NCBI RefSeq assembly: GCF_001279695.1 | Contig: NZ_LGDD01000043.1 | Span: 1 to 17,860, forward strand | Direction: 5' to 3' | Length of the DNA stretch: 17,860 nt | Source of the DNA: Streptomyces sp. WM6378 | GTDB lineage: Bacteria > Actinomycetota > Actinomycetes > Streptomycetales > Streptomycetaceae | In this document: one piece after another, positions 8,289-17,171 of the stretch | How positions within the stretch are numbered: the first letter of the stretch is position 1 | Layout of the letters: every line of letters begins with the position of its first letter | The notes under the pieces: generated by a model | What the model was told of the DNA's origin: nothing | The model's database searches: none | Seen by the model: the letters and a program-made list of their open reading frames with translations, nothing else | Position numbers and translations under genes: made by a program

Positions 8289-8671
8289 GGGTCCGACTCT
8301 CCTCGATCTGGGACGACAGGTGCGGATCGGCAGACGGATCCCCTGGCGAGCACATCTTACGGGACGTTTGTACAACTAACTTGAAAGCCCACTGGCCCAG
8401 CTCCTCGACCTGCACTGAGGCTAGCGGAGCGCCTTGCGAAGCCGCTTGTGGCGCTGGTCGTTCGTGGAGCCGGCCAGAAGGTGACCTCCACATGCCAAAC
8501 CTGTACAGGCGTACTAGCATGGTGGGTATTCACAAGGGCTTCGCTCAGACCGCGGCGGCGAGACTCTCGCCAGGAGCGCGGAACACCTCGGGACGAAGTG
8601 GGACAGAATCTGGCCTATAGCGGCTCCATACTCGCCCCACGATCCATCAGGGCACATGAGGAGTTACTGCC
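8289..8671. other. Divergent intergenic region between DedA and SDR genes
   Basis: This 383-base region carries the promoters of both divergent genes but no convincing coding sequence. It contains the GTAC-N4-GTAC element at 8503-8514, about 160 bases before the SDR start, within a locally AT-richer stretch, and a GAGGAG ribosome-binding site at 8658-8663. GTGACC (8481) and TACAGG (8504) are spaced 17 bases apart and could be a weak -35/-10 pair overlapping the element. Confidence 0.5.
8503..8514. promoter_or_regulatory. Candidate TetR operator, site 1 (GTAC-AGGC-GTAC)
   Basis: GTACAGGCGTAC. One of four GTAC-N4-GTAC elements in the window, here upstream of the SDR/YjbR pair. Flanks (CCT...TAG) are only partly symmetric, so it may be the weakest of the four sites. 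Confidence 0.45.
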
Positions 8672-9598
8672 ATGAATGCGAAACCGCTGTCCGGGAAGGT
8701 CGCGCTGGTCGCCGGGGCGACCCGCGGCGGGGGCCGTGCGATGGCCGTCGAGCTGGGCCGGGCCGGAGCCACCGTGTACGTGACCGGCCGCACCGCCCGT
8801 GGCGTGGTCAGCGAGACGGGCCGACCGGCGGAGACCGTCGAGCAGACCGCCGAACTGGTCACCGCGGCCGGCGGCGCGGGCATCGCCACCGTGGTCGACC
8901 ACCTCCAGGACGACCAGGTGCGGGAGTTGGTGGCCCGGATCGACCGCGACCACGGCCGCCTCGATGTCCTCGTCAACGTGATCTGGGGCGGCGATCATCT
9001 CGTCGAGTACGGCAAGAAGGTCAAGATGTGGGAGTACGACCTGGACAAGGGGCGGCGGATGCTGCGGCTCGGTGTCGAGTCCCACTTCGTCACCAGCCAC
9101 TACGCACTTCCGTTGATGATCCGGAGGCCCGGCGGGCTGGTCGTGGAGATCACCGACGGCACCGAGGAACTCAACCACACCCACTACCGCGAGCCGTTCT
9201 TCTTCGACCTGGCCAAGTACGCGCCGTTCCGGATGGTCAAGGCGCTGGCCCAGGAGGGGAAGGAGTACGGCTGCACGGCGCTTGCCCTCGCCCCGGGATT
9301 CATGCGCACCGAGGCGGTTCTGGAGAAGTTCGGTGTCGCCGAGGAGAACTGGCGCGACGCCTGCGCGGCGATCCCCGACTTCGCGATGTCCGAGACCCCC
9401 GTCTTCGTCGCACGGGCCCTGGCGGCGCTGGCCAGCGACCCCGGCGTGGCCCGCTTCAACGGCTGCTCGGTGTCCGCCGGTGAGCTGTCCAAGGAGTACG
9501 GCTTCACCGACGTGGACGGCTCGGCCCCCGACCCGGCCCGGTACTTCGGCGAGGTCATGCGCACCGGGCAGTACCCGGACCCCGCCGGCTACCGCTGA
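8672..9598 (+). CDS. Atypical short-chain dehydrogenase/reductase (308 aa), catalytic Tyr replaced by Phe
   Basis: ATG 8672 follows GAGGAG at 8-base spacing. The N-terminus KVALVAGATRGGGRAMAVEL (9-28) is the SDR dinucleotide-binding G-x-x-x-G-x-G turn. ATVYVTGRT (33-41) ends in a basic residue that favours NADP(H). LDVLVNVIWGG (98-108) is the equivalent of the NNAG strand. The usual Y-x-x-x-K is FFFDLAK, so Phe178 stands at the expected Tyr and Lys182 is kept. The Ser strand reads GGLVVEITDGT with Asp/Thr instead. Related actinobacterial proteins, as I recall them, read FYDLAK and share the LAPGFMRTEAVLEKFGVAEE and NWRD segments, so the family is clear. Loss of Tyr predicts altered or no dehydrogenase chemistry. 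A candidate TetR operator lies upstream, and the YjbR-like gene starts 51 bases downstream, probably co-transcribed. Confidence 0.85.
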   Translation: MNAKPLSGKVALVAGATRGGGRAMAVELGRAGATVYVTGRTARGVVSETGRPAETVEQTAELVTAAGGAGIATVVDHLQDDQVRELVARIDRDHGRLDVLVNVIWGGDHLVEYGKKVKMWEYDLDKGRRMLRLGVESHFVTSHYALPLMIRRPGGLVVEITDGTEELNHTHYREPFFFDLAKYAPFRMVKALAQEGKEYGCTALALAPGFMRTEAVLEKFGVAEENWRDACAAIPDFAMSETPVFVARALAALASDPGVARFNGCSVSAGELSKEYGFTDVDGSAPDPARYFGEVMRTGQYPDPAGYR

Positions 9599-9649
9599 CG
9601 AAGGCCCCGCCCTCTTTCGCGGCGGGCTCGTACGGCGAAAGGCAATCAC

Positions 9650-10024
9650 TTGACCCCGGACGAGGTCGCGCTGTATGCCCTCTCAATGCCGGAGGCGACG
9701 GAGCACGAGCCCGGTCCCGGTATGTGCCTGTACAAGGTCGGCGGCAAGATCTTCGCCGTCCTGACACCGGCGACCGGTGCGCGCCCCGATCAGGTGACCT
9801 TGAAGTGCGAGCCTGGCCTCGCCCCGCACCTGCGCGCGCAGCACGCCGCCGTGCGCCCGGGGCTTTACGGGCACCGGCAGCACTGGAACACCGTAGTCCT
9901 CGACGGCACAGTGTCAGACGGGGAGTTGGCCGACATGATCGACCACTCCTGGGAGCGTGTGGTGGCGAGGTTGTCCCGCGCCACCCGCGAACAGCTGCTC
10001 AGGCTCCGCGCAGGACTGCCTTAG
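9650..10024 (+). CDS. MmcQ/YjbR family DNA-binding-fold protein (124 aa)
   Basis: TTG 9650 follows GAAAGG and gives MTPDEVALYALSMPEATEHE. The family signature is present: early LSMPEATE..PxP, then MCLYKVGGKIFAVLTPATG, VTLKCEPGLAPHLRAQH, RPGLYGHRQHWNTVVLDGTV and a C-terminal IDHSWERVVARLSRATREQL. YjbR/MmcQ (CyaY-like fold) proteins are small and basic-surfaced. Their role is not settled, despite a DNA-binding-like fold. It probably forms an operon with the SDR gene. Its TAG stop overlaps the TAA of the convergent tetR gene (shared bases 10021-10024), leaving no room for a terminator between them. Confidence 0.8.
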   Translation: MTPDEVALYALSMPEATEHEPGPGMCLYKVGGKIFAVLTPATGARPDQVTLKCEPGLAPHLRAQHAAVRPGLYGHRQHWNTVVLDGTVSDGELADMIDHSWERVVARLSRATREQLLRLRAGLP

Positions 10025-10626
10025 GAGTCGGCCTTCTCGGGCGGTGCGGGAAGGGCCGGGTTGGGGGTGAGGATGCGGCGGAGAATGTCCTCGACCTCGG
10101 CGCGGCTGGGCGGCTGGGTGCCAGCGAGGCCGCGCAGGGTCAGCCCTTGCATGGCGTCGGCGGCGGCCCGCGCCGTGGACAGATCGACGTAGGGCAGCAG
10201 GGCGTTGAGGGTGGCTTCGGTGTACTGGTCGACGATGGGACGCAGCGCGGGGCGGCGCAGAGCGGCGAGGTAGAGCTCGTATTCGAGGACCTGGTACTCG
10301 CGGTTGACGCCGAAGCACTCCATGAGGATGTCAGTCAGCAGCACGACGTGCTGATTGGTGGTGAGGTCGGGGCGCCGGGCCACCCAGTCCTTGAGCAGCG
10401 CGGCATAGCGCCCGTACGCCTGCTGGAGGGCGGCCTGGATCAGGTCGTCCTTGGTGGCGAAGTGATAGGTGGTCGCGCCCAGCGGCACACCCGCCTCCTC
10501 GGCGACCGCCCGGTGGGTCAGCCCTTCGATGCCCCGCGCGGAAATCACGCGCTCGGTGGCGTCGACGATCTCCGCGATCCGGCGCTCGGGGTCGCGGCGG
10601 CGCCGGGGGGAGGGCTGGGCGGGCAT
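10021..10626 (-). CDS. TetR/AcrR family transcriptional regulator (201 aa)
   Basis: ATG 10626 has a GGAG 8-9 bases upstream. A basic start (MPAQPSPRRRRDPERR) leads into the TetR helix-turn-helix: IVDATERVISARGIEGLTHR, AVAEEAGVPLGATTYHFATK, then DDLIQAALQQAYGRYAALLK (the conserved G-x-x-x-x-x-Y-x-F-x-x-K-x-x-L). The remaining helical C-terminal domain should bind a small ligand and dimerise. Members usually repress themselves and nearby efflux or enzyme genes until ligand binds. Upstream is GTACGCATGTAC (10660-10671), extended to CGGTAC/GTACCG, the best palindrome of the four related sites in the window, so autoregulation is likely. A second regulated promoter probably serves the AlkZ-like gene next to it on the same strand. 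Confidence 0.9.
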   Translation of the reverse strand: MPAQPSPRRRRDPERRIAEIVDATERVISARGIEGLTHRAVAEEAGVPLGATTYHFATKDDLIQAALQQAYGRYAALLKDWVARRPDLTTNQHVVLLTDILMECFGVNREYQVLEYELYLAALRRPALRPIVDQYTEATLNALLPYVDLSTARAAADAMQGLTLRGLAGTQPPSRAEVEDILRRILTPNPALPAPPEKADS

Positions 10627-10659
10627 ACGGGTGGCTCCGTGCGGTCGGCGGGCAATGCG

Positions 10660-10671
10660 GTACGCATGTAC
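10660..10671. promoter_or_regulatory. Candidate TetR operator, site 2 (GTAC-GCAT-GTAC)
   Basis: GTACGCATGTAC, symmetric to six bases per arm (CGGTAC...GTACCG) and followed by a third GTAC half (10673-10676). It lies 34 bases upstream of the tetR start codon, a position suited to autorepression. The flank CGTACC is shared with site 3 at 11995-12006. Confidence 0.6.
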
Positions 10672-10744
10672 CGTACCGGGCTCAGAGGTGGGGTGGCGCG
10701 CCGATCGGAGGTGGCTGCGGCGCTGCGGGCGACTGTCGGCTCGG

Positions 10745-11914
10745 TCAGGAGGCCAGCTTGCGCTCCAAGGGGGTGCGGTACTGGGGTGTGACACGGGTGG
10801 CGCCGAGGAAGGCGGTCAGGCGGGCGATCTCGGTCTCGATGGCGGTCCGGGCCGCGCGTCCGGGGTCGGTGAGCAGTTCCCAGGCGATGCGGCCGTCGCG
10901 GCGCTGGGCCCAGCCGCCGATGATCGCGCCGTTCCACCAGATGGTGGGGCCGATGTTGCCGTTGCGATCGAAGAGCGCGGGCTTGTGATCGGGATTGAGG
11001 TAGAAGTCGCGGTGGCGCCAGCCCATGGGGGTGGGGTCGAGGCCGGGCAGGAGCGCGGCCCAGGGCTCGGCCTCGGCAGGTGATTCCTCCTCGCCGGGCA
11101 GGAGGTAGCCGATGCCTTCGTCGAGTTCGACTGCTTCGGCGCCGGTGGCCGCGAGAGCCCTGCGCGTGTCGGTCATGTTCCAGCCGGTCCACCACTTGAG
11201 GTCGTCGGCGGTGACCGGGCCGAAGGCGGATAGATAGCGGCGGGCCAGTTCGGTCCTGGCGTGCCCGGCGGGCAGTTCCGGCAGGGGGTCGGCCGGGGCC
11301 CAGCAGAATTGGCTTGAGGTCCACGAACCGCGCGGTCGCGCCCGGCGGATGCGGCCCTCGGCGGCCAGCACACCCAGAATCGGAGCGGAGAGGCTCTTCC
11401 GGGACTCGTACGGCTTGCCCGGGAAGGTAACGATCTGCTCGCGCAATTCCGGTATGTCCAGGGCGAGTTCGGCGGCGCTGACCTCGCCGCGCTTGGTGAG
11501 GGCCACTATGGCGGCCTGCTCCACGGCGGTGTAGCGGGCGGTGCCCCAGCCGCAGGTCTCGCGCAGGTGACGCATGGTGTGGGCGCGGTTCTTGGCGGCG
11601 TCCCCCTGAGCGGTGGCGGCATGCGCGACGGGTGCCAGGCCGGACGGCAGGACGAACATGGTGCGGCGCATGCACCGGATCCGCGCCAGCGTCCGCTCCT
11701 CGTACAACGCCCGCTCCACCACGGCGACTTCGGGAACGGCCATCCGGGCCGCCGCGGACAGGAACACGGTGGCCGGGTCGGTGGCGTGCAGAGCGACCAG
11801 CGCGTCGACGACCTCGCAGGGAGTCCTGGCCCGCGCGCCGCCCAGGAGATGCCGGGACCCCAGGCGGGCGCGGCGCTCGGCGGGAGTGATGCGGCGAAGG
11901 AGAGTGGTGCTCAT
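10745..11914 (-). CDS. Winged helix DNA-binding domain protein, AlkZ-like (HTH_42) family (389 aa)
   Basis: Start ATG 11914 (MSTTLLRRITPAERRARLGS). Characteristic segments: CEVVDALVALHATDPATVFL, LYEERTLARIRCMRRTMFVL, VEQAAIVALTKRGEVSAAEL, YLSAFGPVTADDLKWWTGWN, LLPGLDPTPMGWRHRDFYLN, RNGNIGPTIWWNGAIIGGWA and a C-terminal TPLERKLAS. This is the HTH_42 family, built from tandem winged helices. Its studied members AlkZ and YcaQ are DNA glycosylases that excise bulky or crosslinked alkylated bases and protect genotoxin producers. Their catalytic Q-x-Q is not seen here; HAT (residues 43-45) is at about the corresponding place, so activity is uncertain. A strong AAGGAGG upstream serves a 16-codon leader ORF that overlaps the start by ATGA. 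A GTAC-N4-GTAC site lies about 80 bases upstream. Confidence 0.85.
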   Translation of the reverse strand: MSTTLLRRITPAERRARLGSRHLLGGARARTPCEVVDALVALHATDPATVFLSAAARMAVPEVAVVERALYEERTLARIRCMRRTMFVLPSGLAPVAHAATAQGDAAKNRAHTMRHLRETCGWGTARYTAVEQAAIVALTKRGEVSAAELALDIPELREQIVTFPGKPYESRKSLSAPILGVLAAEGRIRRARPRGSWTSSQFCWAPADPLPELPAGHARTELARRYLSAFGPVTADDLKWWTGWNMTDTRRALAATGAEAVELDEGIGYLLPGEEESPAEAEPWAALLPGLDPTPMGWRHRDFYLNPDHKPALFDRNGNIGPTIWWNGAIIGGWAQRRDGRIAWELLTDPGRAARTAIETEIARLTAFLGATRVTPQYRTPLERKLAS

Positions 11915-11961
11915 GGCTCGGCTCCGGTCGGGGGTGCAGGCAAGCGGATCGGGAGGTACAA
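11911..11961 (-). CDS. Candidate 16-aa leader ORF coupled to the AlkZ-like gene
   Basis: A near-perfect ribosome-binding site, AAGGAGG (complement of 11967-11973), sits 5 bases before a TTG at 11961. The frame encodes MYLPIRLPAPPTGAEP and its TGA overlaps the ATG of the AlkZ-like gene (ATGA). No in-frame start for the large protein is positioned to use this site, which otherwise would be wasted. The leader is Pro-rich and could couple or attenuate translation. It may equally be accidental. Confidence 0.35.
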   Translation of the reverse strand: MYLPIRLPAPPTGAEP

Positions 11962-11994
11962 CGTGACCTCCTTCCCTCACCCAGATCCAATAAA

Positions 11995-12006
11995 GTACAT
12001 ACGTAC
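11995..12006. promoter_or_regulatory. Candidate TetR operator, site 3 (GTAC-ATAC-GTAC)
   Basis: GTACATACGTAC, followed by CGTACCG exactly as at site 2, so the two minus-strand promoters share the 7-base flank as well as the core. It lies upstream of the leader ORF and the AlkZ-like gene, next to an AT-rich TACTTTATT (minus sense) that could be part of a -10 region. Confidence 0.6.
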
Positions 12007-12185
12007 CGTACCGCGTGCCGATGTGGTCCCATTGCCCGACACGGGACGATCCAGCCCCACCCTTTCCACTGACGGCAGCTTTCCTCAGGTCACATGCGTG
12101 ATCGCGCACGCTGCCGCAAGCGGTGCCACCCAGCCCCGGCGTGATCACGGATTCATTGCGGCACGAAATTGTCACTATGTCCGTA

Positions 12186-12214
12186 TTGCCTGCTCTGCAG
12201 TGATGGTCTACAGT
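12186..12214 (+). promoter_or_regulatory. Predicted promoter of the VOC/SnoaL/exporter cluster
   Basis: TTGCCT (12186-12191) and TACAGT (12209-12214) are separated by 17 bases, a plausible primary-sigma -35/-10 pair. The operator-like site 4 starts at 12213, overlapping the -10 and the expected start of transcription, the classical place for repression. Confidence 0.45.
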
Positions 12215-12224
12215 ACTTATGTAC
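12213..12224. promoter_or_regulatory. Candidate TetR operator, site 4 (GTAC-TTAT-GTAC)
   Basis: GTACTTATGTAC, the fourth copy of the motif, overlapping the predicted -10 element of the + strand cluster and 110 bases upstream of its first gene. Flanking symmetry is partial. Confidence 0.5.
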
Positions 12225-12334: not shown

Positions 12335-12745
12335 ATGGGCGGTGCTTCCGCGCTCCCCGCTGCCATGGGCCGGGTGGCCTCATATGCCTTCTGGTGCCCC
12401 GACGGCAAGGCGCTCGCCGAGTTCTACGCCGCCGCCCTGGACTGGAAGGTCGTCCAGGAGTTCCCGGACGAGAGCGGCGTCCCGACCGCTTTCCTCGTCA
12501 CCGACGGCTCGACGACGTTCGTGTTCTACACGGCCAAGGGGTTCACGGCCCCCAACTGGCCCGAGGATGAACTCCCCTTCCACCTCGACCTGGCCTTCGA
12601 CGACGCCGCGGCGGCCGAGCAGCGCCTGCTCGAACTGGGCGCCACCAAGCCCGACCACCAGCCCGGTGGTGAGCACTGGACCGTCCTGCTGGACCCGTCC
12701 GGACAGCCGTTCTGCATCAGCGCGGGCTGGCCCCAAGGCGCCTGA
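12335..12745 (+). CDS. VOC family protein (glyoxalase/bleomycin-resistance fold), type A (136 aa)
   Basis: ATG 12335 follows GGAG at 8-base spacing. Residues RVASYAFWCPDGKALAEFYA begin the first beta-alpha-beta-beta-beta module (xVxxFxxxLxxA-FYAAAL), and the second ends LGATKPDHQPGGEHWTVLLD then PSGQPFCIS. The last strand (PFCIS) has no Glu where metalloenzymes of the superfamily carry a ligand, so a binding or sequestering role is at least as likely as catalysis. It is the first gene after promoter and operator site 4, and heads the cluster VOC-A, SnoaL-like, VOC-B, exporter. A divergent, frameshifted relative lies at 16305-16699 on the other strand. Confidence 0.85.
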   Translation: MGGASALPAAMGRVASYAFWCPDGKALAEFYAAALDWKVVQEFPDESGVPTAFLVTDGSTTFVFYTAKGFTAPNWPEDELPFHLDLAFDDAAAAEQRLLELGATKPDHQPGGEHWTVLLDPSGQPFCISAGWPQGA

Positions 12746-12802: not shown

Positions 12803-13174
12803 ATGAATGCCGATCAGTTCGTCAAGGAGTGGGCGAGCGCCTACAACGATCAGGACTTCGACCGGTTCGGGGCGCTGTTCACCGACGACGTCGCCTACAC
12901 CCTCAAAGCCTTCGGTCTCGCTTTCACGGGCCGGGACGCCTGGGTGGGCCACGTGCGGGAGTACGCGGCCGCCGTGCCCGACCGCAGGCTGACCGTCAAG
13001 CGGACCGTCGCGGACGGGGACACCATCGCGGTCGAATACGACTTCGCGGGCACCAGCGCCGGGGTCATGGCGAACCTGCCGCCCAAGGGAGAGCCGGTCA
13101 CGGTCAGCTTCTGCACCATCCTGCAGCTGCGCGGCGACCGCGCGGCTGCGCAGGTCGACTACCTCGGCGGCTAG
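12803..13174 (+). CDS. SnoaL-like / NTF2-fold protein (123 aa)
   Basis: ATG 12803 has a strong AGGAGG 6 bases upstream. The protein starts MNADQFVKEWASAYNDQDFD and continues RFGALFTDDVAYTLKAFGLA, FTGRDAWVGHVREY, then ADGDTIAVEYDFAGTSAG and a final AAAQVDYLGG. The pattern W..ayn..D...l..lft.Dv.......G...G...v......v.D is typical of the SnoaL-like polyketide-cyclase-like/NTF2 cone fold, a small pocket used for isomerases, hydrolases and binding proteins of secondary metabolism. The substrate cannot be read from the sequence. It sits 57 bases after VOC-A and 75 before VOC-B, so it is likely co-transcribed. It has no counterpart in the inverted VOC pair at 15.7-16.7 kb. Confidence 0.8.
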   Translation: MNADQFVKEWASAYNDQDFDRFGALFTDDVAYTLKAFGLAFTGRDAWVGHVREYAAAVPDRRLTVKRTVADGDTIAVEYDFAGTSAGVMANLPPKGEPVTVSFCTILQLRGDRAAAQVDYLGG

Positions 13175-13249
13175 CCACCTGCGGCCCCGCCCGCGACAGC
13201 ACACACCAACACACCCCTACACCCACCCACACATCAAAGGAGTATGACC

Positions 13250-13636
13250 ATGGGTTACGCACCCTGCTTCAGCGTCAAGGACACCGCAGCCAGCATCGCC
13301 TTCTACGAGAAGCTCGGCTTCACCGTGGACTCCAGCGGCGCCAAGCCCGGCGACGACATCCACATGCTGCTCCACGGCGGCGAGTTCTGCGGAATGCTCT
13401 ACAGCAACGCGGACCTGAAGAAGTGGCTGCCCGTCCTCGCGGACACCCCCATCGGCTTCGCCGGCATGCACTACCTGGGCGTCGACGATCTCCAGGCCAC
13501 GCACGACCTCATCGCCCAGCACGCCGAGATCGTCAAGCCCCTCGCCGAGCACAACGGCATGCGCCTGTTCTACTTCCGCGACCTCGACGGCTACGTCATC
13601 GGCGTCAACGAGAAGGCCGCTGCCCCTGCCGTCTAG
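13250..13636 (+). CDS. VOC family protein, type B (128 aa)
   Basis: Of two nearby ATGs (13244 and 13250), the second is chosen because AAGGAG lies 7 bases before it and only 1 base before the first. The sequence starts MGYAPCFSVKDTAASIAFYE and shows both VOC modules: KLGFTVDSSGAKPGDDIHML and, after PIGFAGMHYLGVDD, the final RLFYFRDLDGYVIGVNE. The last strand has G-Y-V-I-G-V where metal-dependent members have N-x-I-E. The first ligand His is also absent, so it is probably a non-metal binding protein of bleomycin-resistance type. It is very similar to the minus-strand gene at 15743-16150 (shared ...FCGMLYSNADLKKWLPVLAD...). It is third in the cluster, with the exporter next. Confidence 0.85.
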   Translation: MGYAPCFSVKDTAASIAFYEKLGFTVDSSGAKPGDDIHMLLHGGEFCGMLYSNADLKKWLPVLADTPIGFAGMHYLGVDDLQATHDLIAQHAEIVKPLAEHNGMRLFYFRDLDGYVIGVNEKAAAPAV

Positions 13637-13885: not shown

Positions 13886-15450
<1,565 letters not shown>

Positions 15451-15742: not shown

Positions 15743-16150
15743 TCAGGTGTATTTGCCGAGGTCGCTGGCCTGGAGGGCGGCGTTGTCGTTGATGCCGACG
15801 ACGTAGCCGTCCGGGTCGCGGAAGTAGAACATGCGCTGACCGGTGTGGTCGGTGCCGGTGTCCTTGACGATCTCGGCGTGCTCGGCGATGTGGTCGTGGG
15901 CAGCGTCGAAGTTGTCCACGGCAAGGTAGAACATGCCGGCGAACCCGATGGGGACGTCCGCCAGGACGGGCAGCCACTTCTTCAAGTCGGCGTTGCTGTA
16001 GAGCATTCCGCAGAATCCGCCCTGGTAGGTCAGCATGTGAATGTCGTCCCCGGGACTGGCGGTGCTGGAATCGACATCGAAGCCGAGCTTCTTGTAGAAC
16101 GCGATGCTGGCAGCGGTGTCCTGGACACTCAGACAGGGCGCGAACGGCAT
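15743..16150 (-). CDS. VOC family protein, type B paralogue (135 aa)
   Basis: ATG 16150 follows GGAGG 5 bases away. The product begins MPFAPCLSVQDTAASIAFYK and continues KLGFDVDSSTASPGDDIHML, QGGFCGMLYSNADLKKWLPV, LADVPIGFAGMFYLAVDNFD, and ends with MFYFRDPDGYVVGINDNAAL. By eye roughly two thirds of residues match the type B protein at 13250, including the missing metal-ligand positions, so they are recent paralogues. It follows the type A relative (16305-16699) on the minus strand with 154 bases between, the same A-then-B order as in the + cluster but without the SnoaL-like gene. Confidence 0.85.
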   Translation of the reverse strand: MPFAPCLSVQDTAASIAFYKKLGFDVDSSTASPGDDIHMLTYQGGFCGMLYSNADLKKWLPVLADVPIGFAGMFYLAVDNFDAAHDHIAEHAEIVKDTGTDHTGQRMFYFRDPDGYVVGINDNAALQASDLGKYT

Positions 16151-16844: not shown

Positions 16845-17171
16845 ATGGCCTATGACGAGGTACTGGCGGAACGAGTCCAGGAGCTGCTGGAACAGAGCGA
16901 CGCGGTCGTGGCGAAGAAGATGTTCGGCGGGCTCGTCTTCACCGTGCAGGGGAACACGGCGGTCGGCGTGGTCGGCGACGACCTGCTGGTACGAGTCGCC
17001 CCGGACAGCACCCCACGCGCCCTCGCCCAACCCGGCGCACGGCCCTACGAGTTCCGCGGCCGGATCTCGAAAGGCTGGGTACTGGTCTCAGGAGAAGTCC
17101 TCGACGACGACATCCTGGACAACTGGCTGGAGCTGGGCCGGGAAGCCGCCGCCGAGCATCCGCCCAAGTGA
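16845..17171 (+). CDS. TfoX/Sxy N-terminal domain family protein (108 aa)
   Basis: ATG 16845 follows GTGAGG closely. The sequence MAYDEVLAERVQELLEQSDA then VVAKKMFGGLVFTVQGNTAV, GVVGDDLLVRVAP, and RISKGWVLVSGEVLDDDILD matches the TfoX_N pattern (KxMFGGxxFxxxGxMxxGxxxDxLxVRV; P.....R..RG.v.v). In gamma-proteobacteria Sxy/TfoX controls competence with CRP. Actinobacterial single-domain relatives are uncharacterised, and the name should not be read as a competence function. Small MFGG-domain proteins like this and YjbR-like proteins often occur near VOC and SnoaL-like genes. It is divergent from VOC-A' and has its own promoter region of about 145 bases. Confidence 0.85.
   Translation: MAYDEVLAERVQELLEQSDAVVAKKMFGGLVFTVQGNTAVGVVGDDLLVRVAPDSTPRALAQPGARPYEFRGRISKGWVLVSGEVLDDDILDNWLELGREAAAEHPPK

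Follow-up and report, generated by a model that had tools for sequence, protein, structure and literature searches.

EbrR, a Streptomyces TetR-family protein linked to an SMR pump (structures 3hta, 3hth, 3hti and 3htj), is said to have been solved with dyes such as ethidium and proflavine. Rv3066 of Mycobacterium tuberculosis (3t6n, 3v6g, 3v78) reportedly has a 14-bp palindromic operator (in work attributed to Bolla, 2012). Binding of Rv3066 to a palindrome is documented (PMC4482099), and the protein represses the SMR pump gene mmr, the expression of which rises over 100-fold when Rv3066 is lost (PMC11537118). AZL2, in turn, is a class of DNA glycosylase with the consensus H-aliphatic-(S/T)(D/E); the S. 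caeruleatus enzyme excises 7-methylguanine, the genes are mostly single-copy and lie outside biosynthetic clusters, and the passages that describe them name no regulator (Bradley 2022, PMC9040887). Here we describe a 17.9-kb stretch of DNA from Streptomyces sp. WM6378 (contig NZ_LGDD01000043.1; the whole stretch is called the window) in which a TetR protein of the EbrR and Rv3066 type is encoded beside an AZL2-type gene and genes for VOC proteins, and in which three copies of the inverted repeat GTAC-N4-GTAC are, on sequence grounds, very probably its operators.

The window is one contig (C43) of a 9.49 Mb draft genome in 361 contigs, which was scanned as a whole. The closest solved chains to the window TetR are the EbrA repressor 3hta (6.9e-35) and Rv3066 (3t6n, 7.9e-24), the latter belonging to the same TetR subfamily. 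The likeness to EbrR extends to a near-identical recognition region, and EbrR relatives likewise carry GTAC-N4-GTAC upstream; these relatives have an adjoining SMR gene where examined (L040 and L044 by eye, L039 by Pfam), whereas domain searches of the window genes found no SMR gene beside tetR, the partners of which are VOC and AZL2 genes. Similarly, the target of Rv3066 is a pump, while that predicted for the window TetR is a glycosylase. The AlkZ-like protein of the window bears HATD at residues 43-46, in agreement with the AZL2 consensus (PMC9040887) and not with the (Q/H)-aliphatic-Q motif of the AlkZ self-resistance type. The core of the locus comprises the following features:

10021..10626, minus strand: tetR, 201 aa, TetR family, EbrR/Rv3066-like (Pfam TetR_N 6.4e-11, TetR_C_31 5.7e-12)
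10660..10671, minus strand: candidate operator 2 (tetR promoter), preceded on the minus strand by a third GTAC at 10673-10676; rank 3 of 77, score 23.0
10745..11914, minus strand: alkZ-like gene, 389 aa, AZL2-type DNA glycosylase family, HATD with His43 (Pfam AlkZ-like 4.4e-60)
11995..12006, minus strand: candidate operator 3 (alkZ promoter), third GTAC at 12008-12011; rank 1 of 77, score 29.4
12177..12191, plus strand: ATGTCCGTATTGCCT, the extended -35 region conserved at the VOC promoter (-35 hexamer TTGCCT at 12186-12191), recurring in orthologous loci 23-24 bp from the operator
12209..12214, plus strand: -10-like hexamer TACAGT, 17 bp from the -35 and overlapping candidate operator 4
12213..12224, plus strand: candidate operator 4 (VOC operon promoter); rank 2 of 77, score 26.4
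12335..12745, plus strand: VOC1, glyoxalase/bleomycin-resistance-like (Pfam Glyoxalase_6 3.8e-21), first gene of a plus-strand operon

An earlier note on this DNA had placed four GTAC-N4-GTAC elements, at 8503, 10660, 11995 and 12213, upstream of an SDR gene, tetR, the AlkZ-like gene and the VOC cluster. The coordinates are right, the four are the sole exact matches within the window, and the distances to the likely ATG codons are 158 bp to that of SDR (8672), 34 bp to that of tetR (10626), 81 bp to that of alkZ (11914) and 111 bp to that of VOC1 (12335). The CGTACC flank that it described as common to sites 2 (10660) and 3 (11995) is present, as is the overlap of site 4 (12213) with a -10 box; the 16-base palindrome reported for site 2 holds for the frame but not for the central four bases. 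The note does not mention a third GTAC (GTACGGTAC), shared by sites 2 and 3 on the minus strand. Dinucleotide shuffles of the window (n = 200) contain on average 0.04 such elements against the four observed. Genome-wide, the motif occurs 78 times (about 0.14 per window) and its reversed form, which served as control, 65 times; the bare core is thus ordinary and not enriched. The note had named commonness throughout the genome as a refutation: the core is, in this sense, unremarkable, but a cluster of four is rare (Poisson 1.4e-5 for this window; p = 3.6e-4 for four within 3.7 kb anywhere, given 78 sites placed at random over 9.49 Mb). Hence, the clustering is not due to chance.

TetR relatives at an E-value of 1e-20 or better are encoded in 163 of 199 same-genus genomes. 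Among the matches listed, close relatives (68-74% identity) come from three other genomes, the rest being about 40-51% identical. A further genome scan yielded the 24 close loci (L047-L070; 57-76% identical in the best segment) that form our orthologue set. In a midpoint-rooted FastTree phylogeny, these 24, two further orthologues and the window TetR form one clade (support 0.999), and 26 EbrR-type paralogue loci form a separate one (0.967). Exact GTAC-N4-GTAC elements lie within 450 bp upstream of TetR at 14 of the 24 orthologous and 25 of the 26 paralogous loci, the sole exception among the latter (L022) being a contig end; any other palindromic tetramer reaches at most two and four loci, respectively. 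Two exact sites stand between the VOC side and TetR at nine of the 24 orthologous loci. Outside the genus, eight of 16 loci carry the exact element, four of them within 450 bp upstream; at two EbrR-like loci of this kind, L284 (2050, 2064) and L293 (1445), the neighbouring gene encodes an MFS exporter, not an SMR pump. Since close matches precede the same kinds of genes in many relatives, the sites at 10660, 11995 and 12213 look like genuine docking sites. The proposal that the elements are operators of the central TetR is thus well supported by comparison for these three, the orthologous loci carrying the element at matching places, and not for 8503. Two outcomes that the note had named as refutations, a motif common throughout the genome and a lack of conservation upstream of orthologues, were examined, and neither overturns the three sites.

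The two clades have the core in common and differ in the flanks. The same genome encodes an EbrR-type paralogue (G000:C316; 45% identical) beside an SMR gene, its recognition region being nearly the same as that of the window TetR (VPLGATTYHF against VPLGSTTYHF). The motif is therefore not private to the local TetR, since this paralogue is linked to the same core with other flanks. We scored sites with an orthologue matrix (33 sites from 18 orthologue loci, none from the window; consensus taCAGTACatatGTACTGta) and a paralogue matrix (37 sites; consensus CgATGtGTACGnnCGTACaCATcG). Among the 77 of the 78 genomic occurrences that were ranked, flank scores from the orthologue matrix place 11995 first, 12213 second, 10660 third and 8503 seventh; against their own shuffled flanks, 11995 (p = 0.0007) and 10660 (p = 0.0013) fit well. 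Full scores are 29.4 (11995), 26.4 (12213), 23.0 (10660), 16.4 (8503) and 16.5 (a degenerate copy at 8362), while unselected sequence from the same genus (212 kb) reaches at most 13.6, and places in the WM6378 genome selected for the core at most 22.3. The last value, the best match outside the window, belongs to C295:33189 (L297 3690-3701), between the divergent genes of a small secreted-like protein and an MMPL exporter, a weak lead as a further candidate site. In leave-one-out scoring, the best site fell at the TetR/VOC promoter in 17 of the 18 training loci (L054 fails), and in seven orthologues without an exact site, all outside the training set, the two top-scoring positions coincide with these two intergenic places (7/7). 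With the full matrix, training loci included, the best score lies in the promoter zone at 21 of 24 loci, and all but L052 and L054 (22 of 24) reach 13.7.

Several observations weigh against so tidy a picture. The flank fit of 12213 against shuffled flanks is only p = 0.038, and paralogue loci score up to 14.4 with the orthologue matrix. Two of the 24 loci, L052 and L054, lack a good site near TetR (the sites of L052 lie upstream of its VOC-AlkZ-TetR run; L054 has none), and two of the 33 training sites (L054 3868 and L037 12410) are outside TetR promoters. The 24 loci are not independent, as two strains contribute two loci each and several are close relatives. Finally, other GTAC spacings recur in the 24 orthologue promoters (N9 in nine, N1 in eight, N0 in four and N10 in two) and at the 26 paralogues (N10 in 11, N9 in three, N11 in three and N7 in two); these may be extra half-sites or neighbouring operators.

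At the 24 orthologous TetR loci, the neighbours include VOC at 17, AlkZ at 12 and an MFS relative at four, with SDR, SnoaL and the VTT-domain gene at none. The inclusion of SnoaL and the exporter in the regulon cluster, as the earlier note had it, is not matched by conserved neighbourhood (0/24 and 4/24), and we rejected both as conserved members. The element was absent from six of six loci with VOC1 relatives but without this TetR nearby, and from 25 of 25 other AZL2 loci. HATD is present in 12 of 12 TetR-linked AlkZ proteins; these group with the window protein and three of its close relatives in a clade (0.968), to which L138 and the second AlkZ of the genome belong as well. This second AZL2 copy (at C332) and the union with a TetR/VOC regulon set the window AZL2 apart from those described in the passages cited above (PMC9040887). 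No genotoxin biosynthetic genes were recognised on the contig, which is short at 17.9 kb.

The geometry of the VOC promoter is also shared. In the window, 17 bp separate TTGCCT, the -35 within ATGTCCGTATTGCCT, from TACAGT; the latter overlaps the operator at 12213, and the distance from TGTCCGTATTGC to the operator is 23 bp. Exact copies of TGTCCGTATTGC occur in nine of 27 loci scanned, and a script found the operator 23-24 bp further on in eight of the nine; at the ninth (L126), a degenerate operator at 24 bp was recognised by hand. Further loci have one- or two-base variants. The ATGTCCGTATTGC box, directly at the -35 of the VOC promoters (12177-12191), is more conserved than an ordinary -35 and may be the site of a second regulator. 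A PafBC- or ECF-type reading of ATGTCCGTATTGC was dropped because the spacing better suits an ordinary -35/-10 pair. Elsewhere in the genome, TGTCCGTATTGC recurs exactly once more, at C309:53509, flanked by thyX- and dapA-like genes (by eye).

In another genome, G090, the arrangement is dispersed: 4.7 Mb of a single contig separate the tetR orthologue (at 4.12 Mb) from the closest AZL2 gene (at 8.85 Mb), and the 8 kb surrounding the latter revealed no TetR of this kind. This AZL2 locus, which was outside the training set, has candidate sites scoring 28.9 and 20.8. The second is preceded by ATGTCCGTATTGCAC, as at VOC promoters, with 24 bp from the -35 element to the operator, and lies some 620 bp upstream of the AZL2 gene, from which a short ORF separates it. 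By its sequence, the G090 AZL2 gene is a predicted target in trans of the distant tetR through the same operator-promoter unit.

The remaining features of the locus are these:

8362..8373, plus strand: weak degenerate candidate operator on the VTT/DedA-like gene side; score 16.5
8503..8514, plus strand: weak candidate operator 1, on the side of the SDR gene; rank 7 of 77, score 16.4 (p = 0.28 by permutation of the flanks)
8672..9598, plus strand: SDR oxidoreductase (NF006159 1.4e-133), regulon membership doubtful
12803..13174, plus strand: SnoaL-like protein (Pfam SnoaL_2 9.9e-20)
13244..13636, plus strand: VOC2, glyoxalase-like (Pfam Glyoxalase 1.3e-8)
13886..15450, plus strand: MFS (DHA2-type) exporter (Pfam MFS_1 4.5e-44 for the first part), in two frames in this assembly, split by C-rich tracts

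The C-tracts that break the exporter frame, at 14503-14584, may be an assembly artefact in this draft. A third VOC gene, VOC3 (15743-16150), lies on the strand opposite VOC2, is 72% identical to it over the aligned part and has a TfoX_N gene as neighbour (16845-17171). G134 has a comparable VOC-TfoX group (L265), which lacks an operator. On the other side of the window, the degenerate copy GGACGTTTGTAC (8362-8373) scores like site 1 and precedes the VTT/DedA-like gene, the probable TTG start of which (8288) is 74 bp away.

How far the regulon extends is the first question on which readings diverge. It is likely, in our judgement, that the real targets are confined to the tetR/alkZ pair and the VOC promoter, that 8503 and 8362 are background and that the SDR and VTT-domain genes lie outside the regulon. 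The flanks of 8503 are no better than shuffled ones, three genomic occurrences outside the window outscore it on flanks, and none of 29 SDR orthologue loci has a site scoring at least 14. A role for 8503 as the TetR operator of SDR, which the earlier note had proposed, is accordingly not supported, and we rejected it given the 0/29 and the absence of SDR from all 24 TetR loci; 8362 is without comparative support, the VTT-domain gene being found at none of these. In favour of the two sites, both exceed the background maximum of 13.6 and they share an intergenic region, 141 bp from each other. For now, neither 8503 nor the SDR gene should be counted in the regulon.

Other readings concern what the repeats are and what binds them. 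The paralogue at G000:C316 could bind the window sites instead of, or alongside, the local TetR, so that one SMR-pump repressor governs both systems; its shared core, near-identical recognition region and presence in the same genome speak for this, but the flanks are clade-specific, the paralogue matrix reaches only 0.7 in the window, and its flank score is above 0 at just one of the 77 occurrences, beside the paralogue's own SMR gene. We consider this improbable. That a motif of a GC-rich genome clustered by chance is scarcely credible: the bare core is not enriched and the pattern was chosen after the fact, but the cluster probability, the first three ranks of the held-out sites and the conservation upstream of orthologues all point the other way. 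There is just as little to recommend a reading of the repeats as small RNA hairpins with a 4-bp stem and a 4-base loop. GTAC-N4-GTAC is indeed self-complementary; however, the stem has just 4 bp, the conservation of the flanks extends beyond it, and 12213 overlaps the -10 hexamer, so that most of this site would not be transcribed from the VOC promoter.

On the best reading, the locus encodes a sensor of the EbrR type that is a sister of the SMR-pump repressor and appears to have been rewired to the AZL2 glycosylase and the VOC proteins. Its operator would have the flanks TACAGTAC-N4-GTACTGTA, as against ATGtGTACG-N2-CGTACaCAT in the EbrR clade, around the same core. At the VOC promoter (TTGCCT-N17-TACAGT), a TetR dimer would occupy the -10 region and presumably repress by covering it; TetR would also bind just upstream of alkZ and tetR, thereby repressing alkZ, the VOC operon and itself. 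Release by a small aromatic drug, probably DNA-binding or DNA-reactive, would then jointly induce the AZL2 glycosylase, to remove alkylated bases, and the VOC proteins, to bind the drug or to convert it. SnoaL and the MFS exporter would be induced along with them in this strain. We infer repression, autoregulation, the type of ligand and the glycosylase function from what is known of these families. Repression is the usual sign in this TetR family, as the effect of Rv3066 loss on mmr indicates (PMC11537118), and together with the excision of 7-methylguanine by one AZL2 enzyme it suggests that a DNA-reactive compound is sensed and answered by joint repair and detoxification. We give a drug-inducible role in genotoxin defence about even chances. 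A fuller version is put forward more tentatively: a drug sensor that shares its multidrug-sensor ancestry with EbrR may have been rewired from export to DNA repair, with one small molecule inducing AZL2 and drug-binding VOC proteins together, in certain genomes even in trans across megabases, and with the conserved ATGTCCGTATTGC box taking a second input.

In the literature searched, an open subset, we found neither GTACNNNNGTAC nor any paper that deals with this operator or with the control of AZL2 by a TetR protein. With these predictions, AZL2, a glycosylase class of unclear purpose, gains a candidate regulator, a candidate operator and constant partners; a search for the compound that releases the repressor then becomes a way to look for the natural substrate of the enzyme. 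Furthermore, the comparison suggests a family-wide operator rule for EbrR-like regulators, a GTAC-N4-GTAC core with clade-specific flanks, by which their targets, unlinked ones included, may be found in any actinomycete genome.

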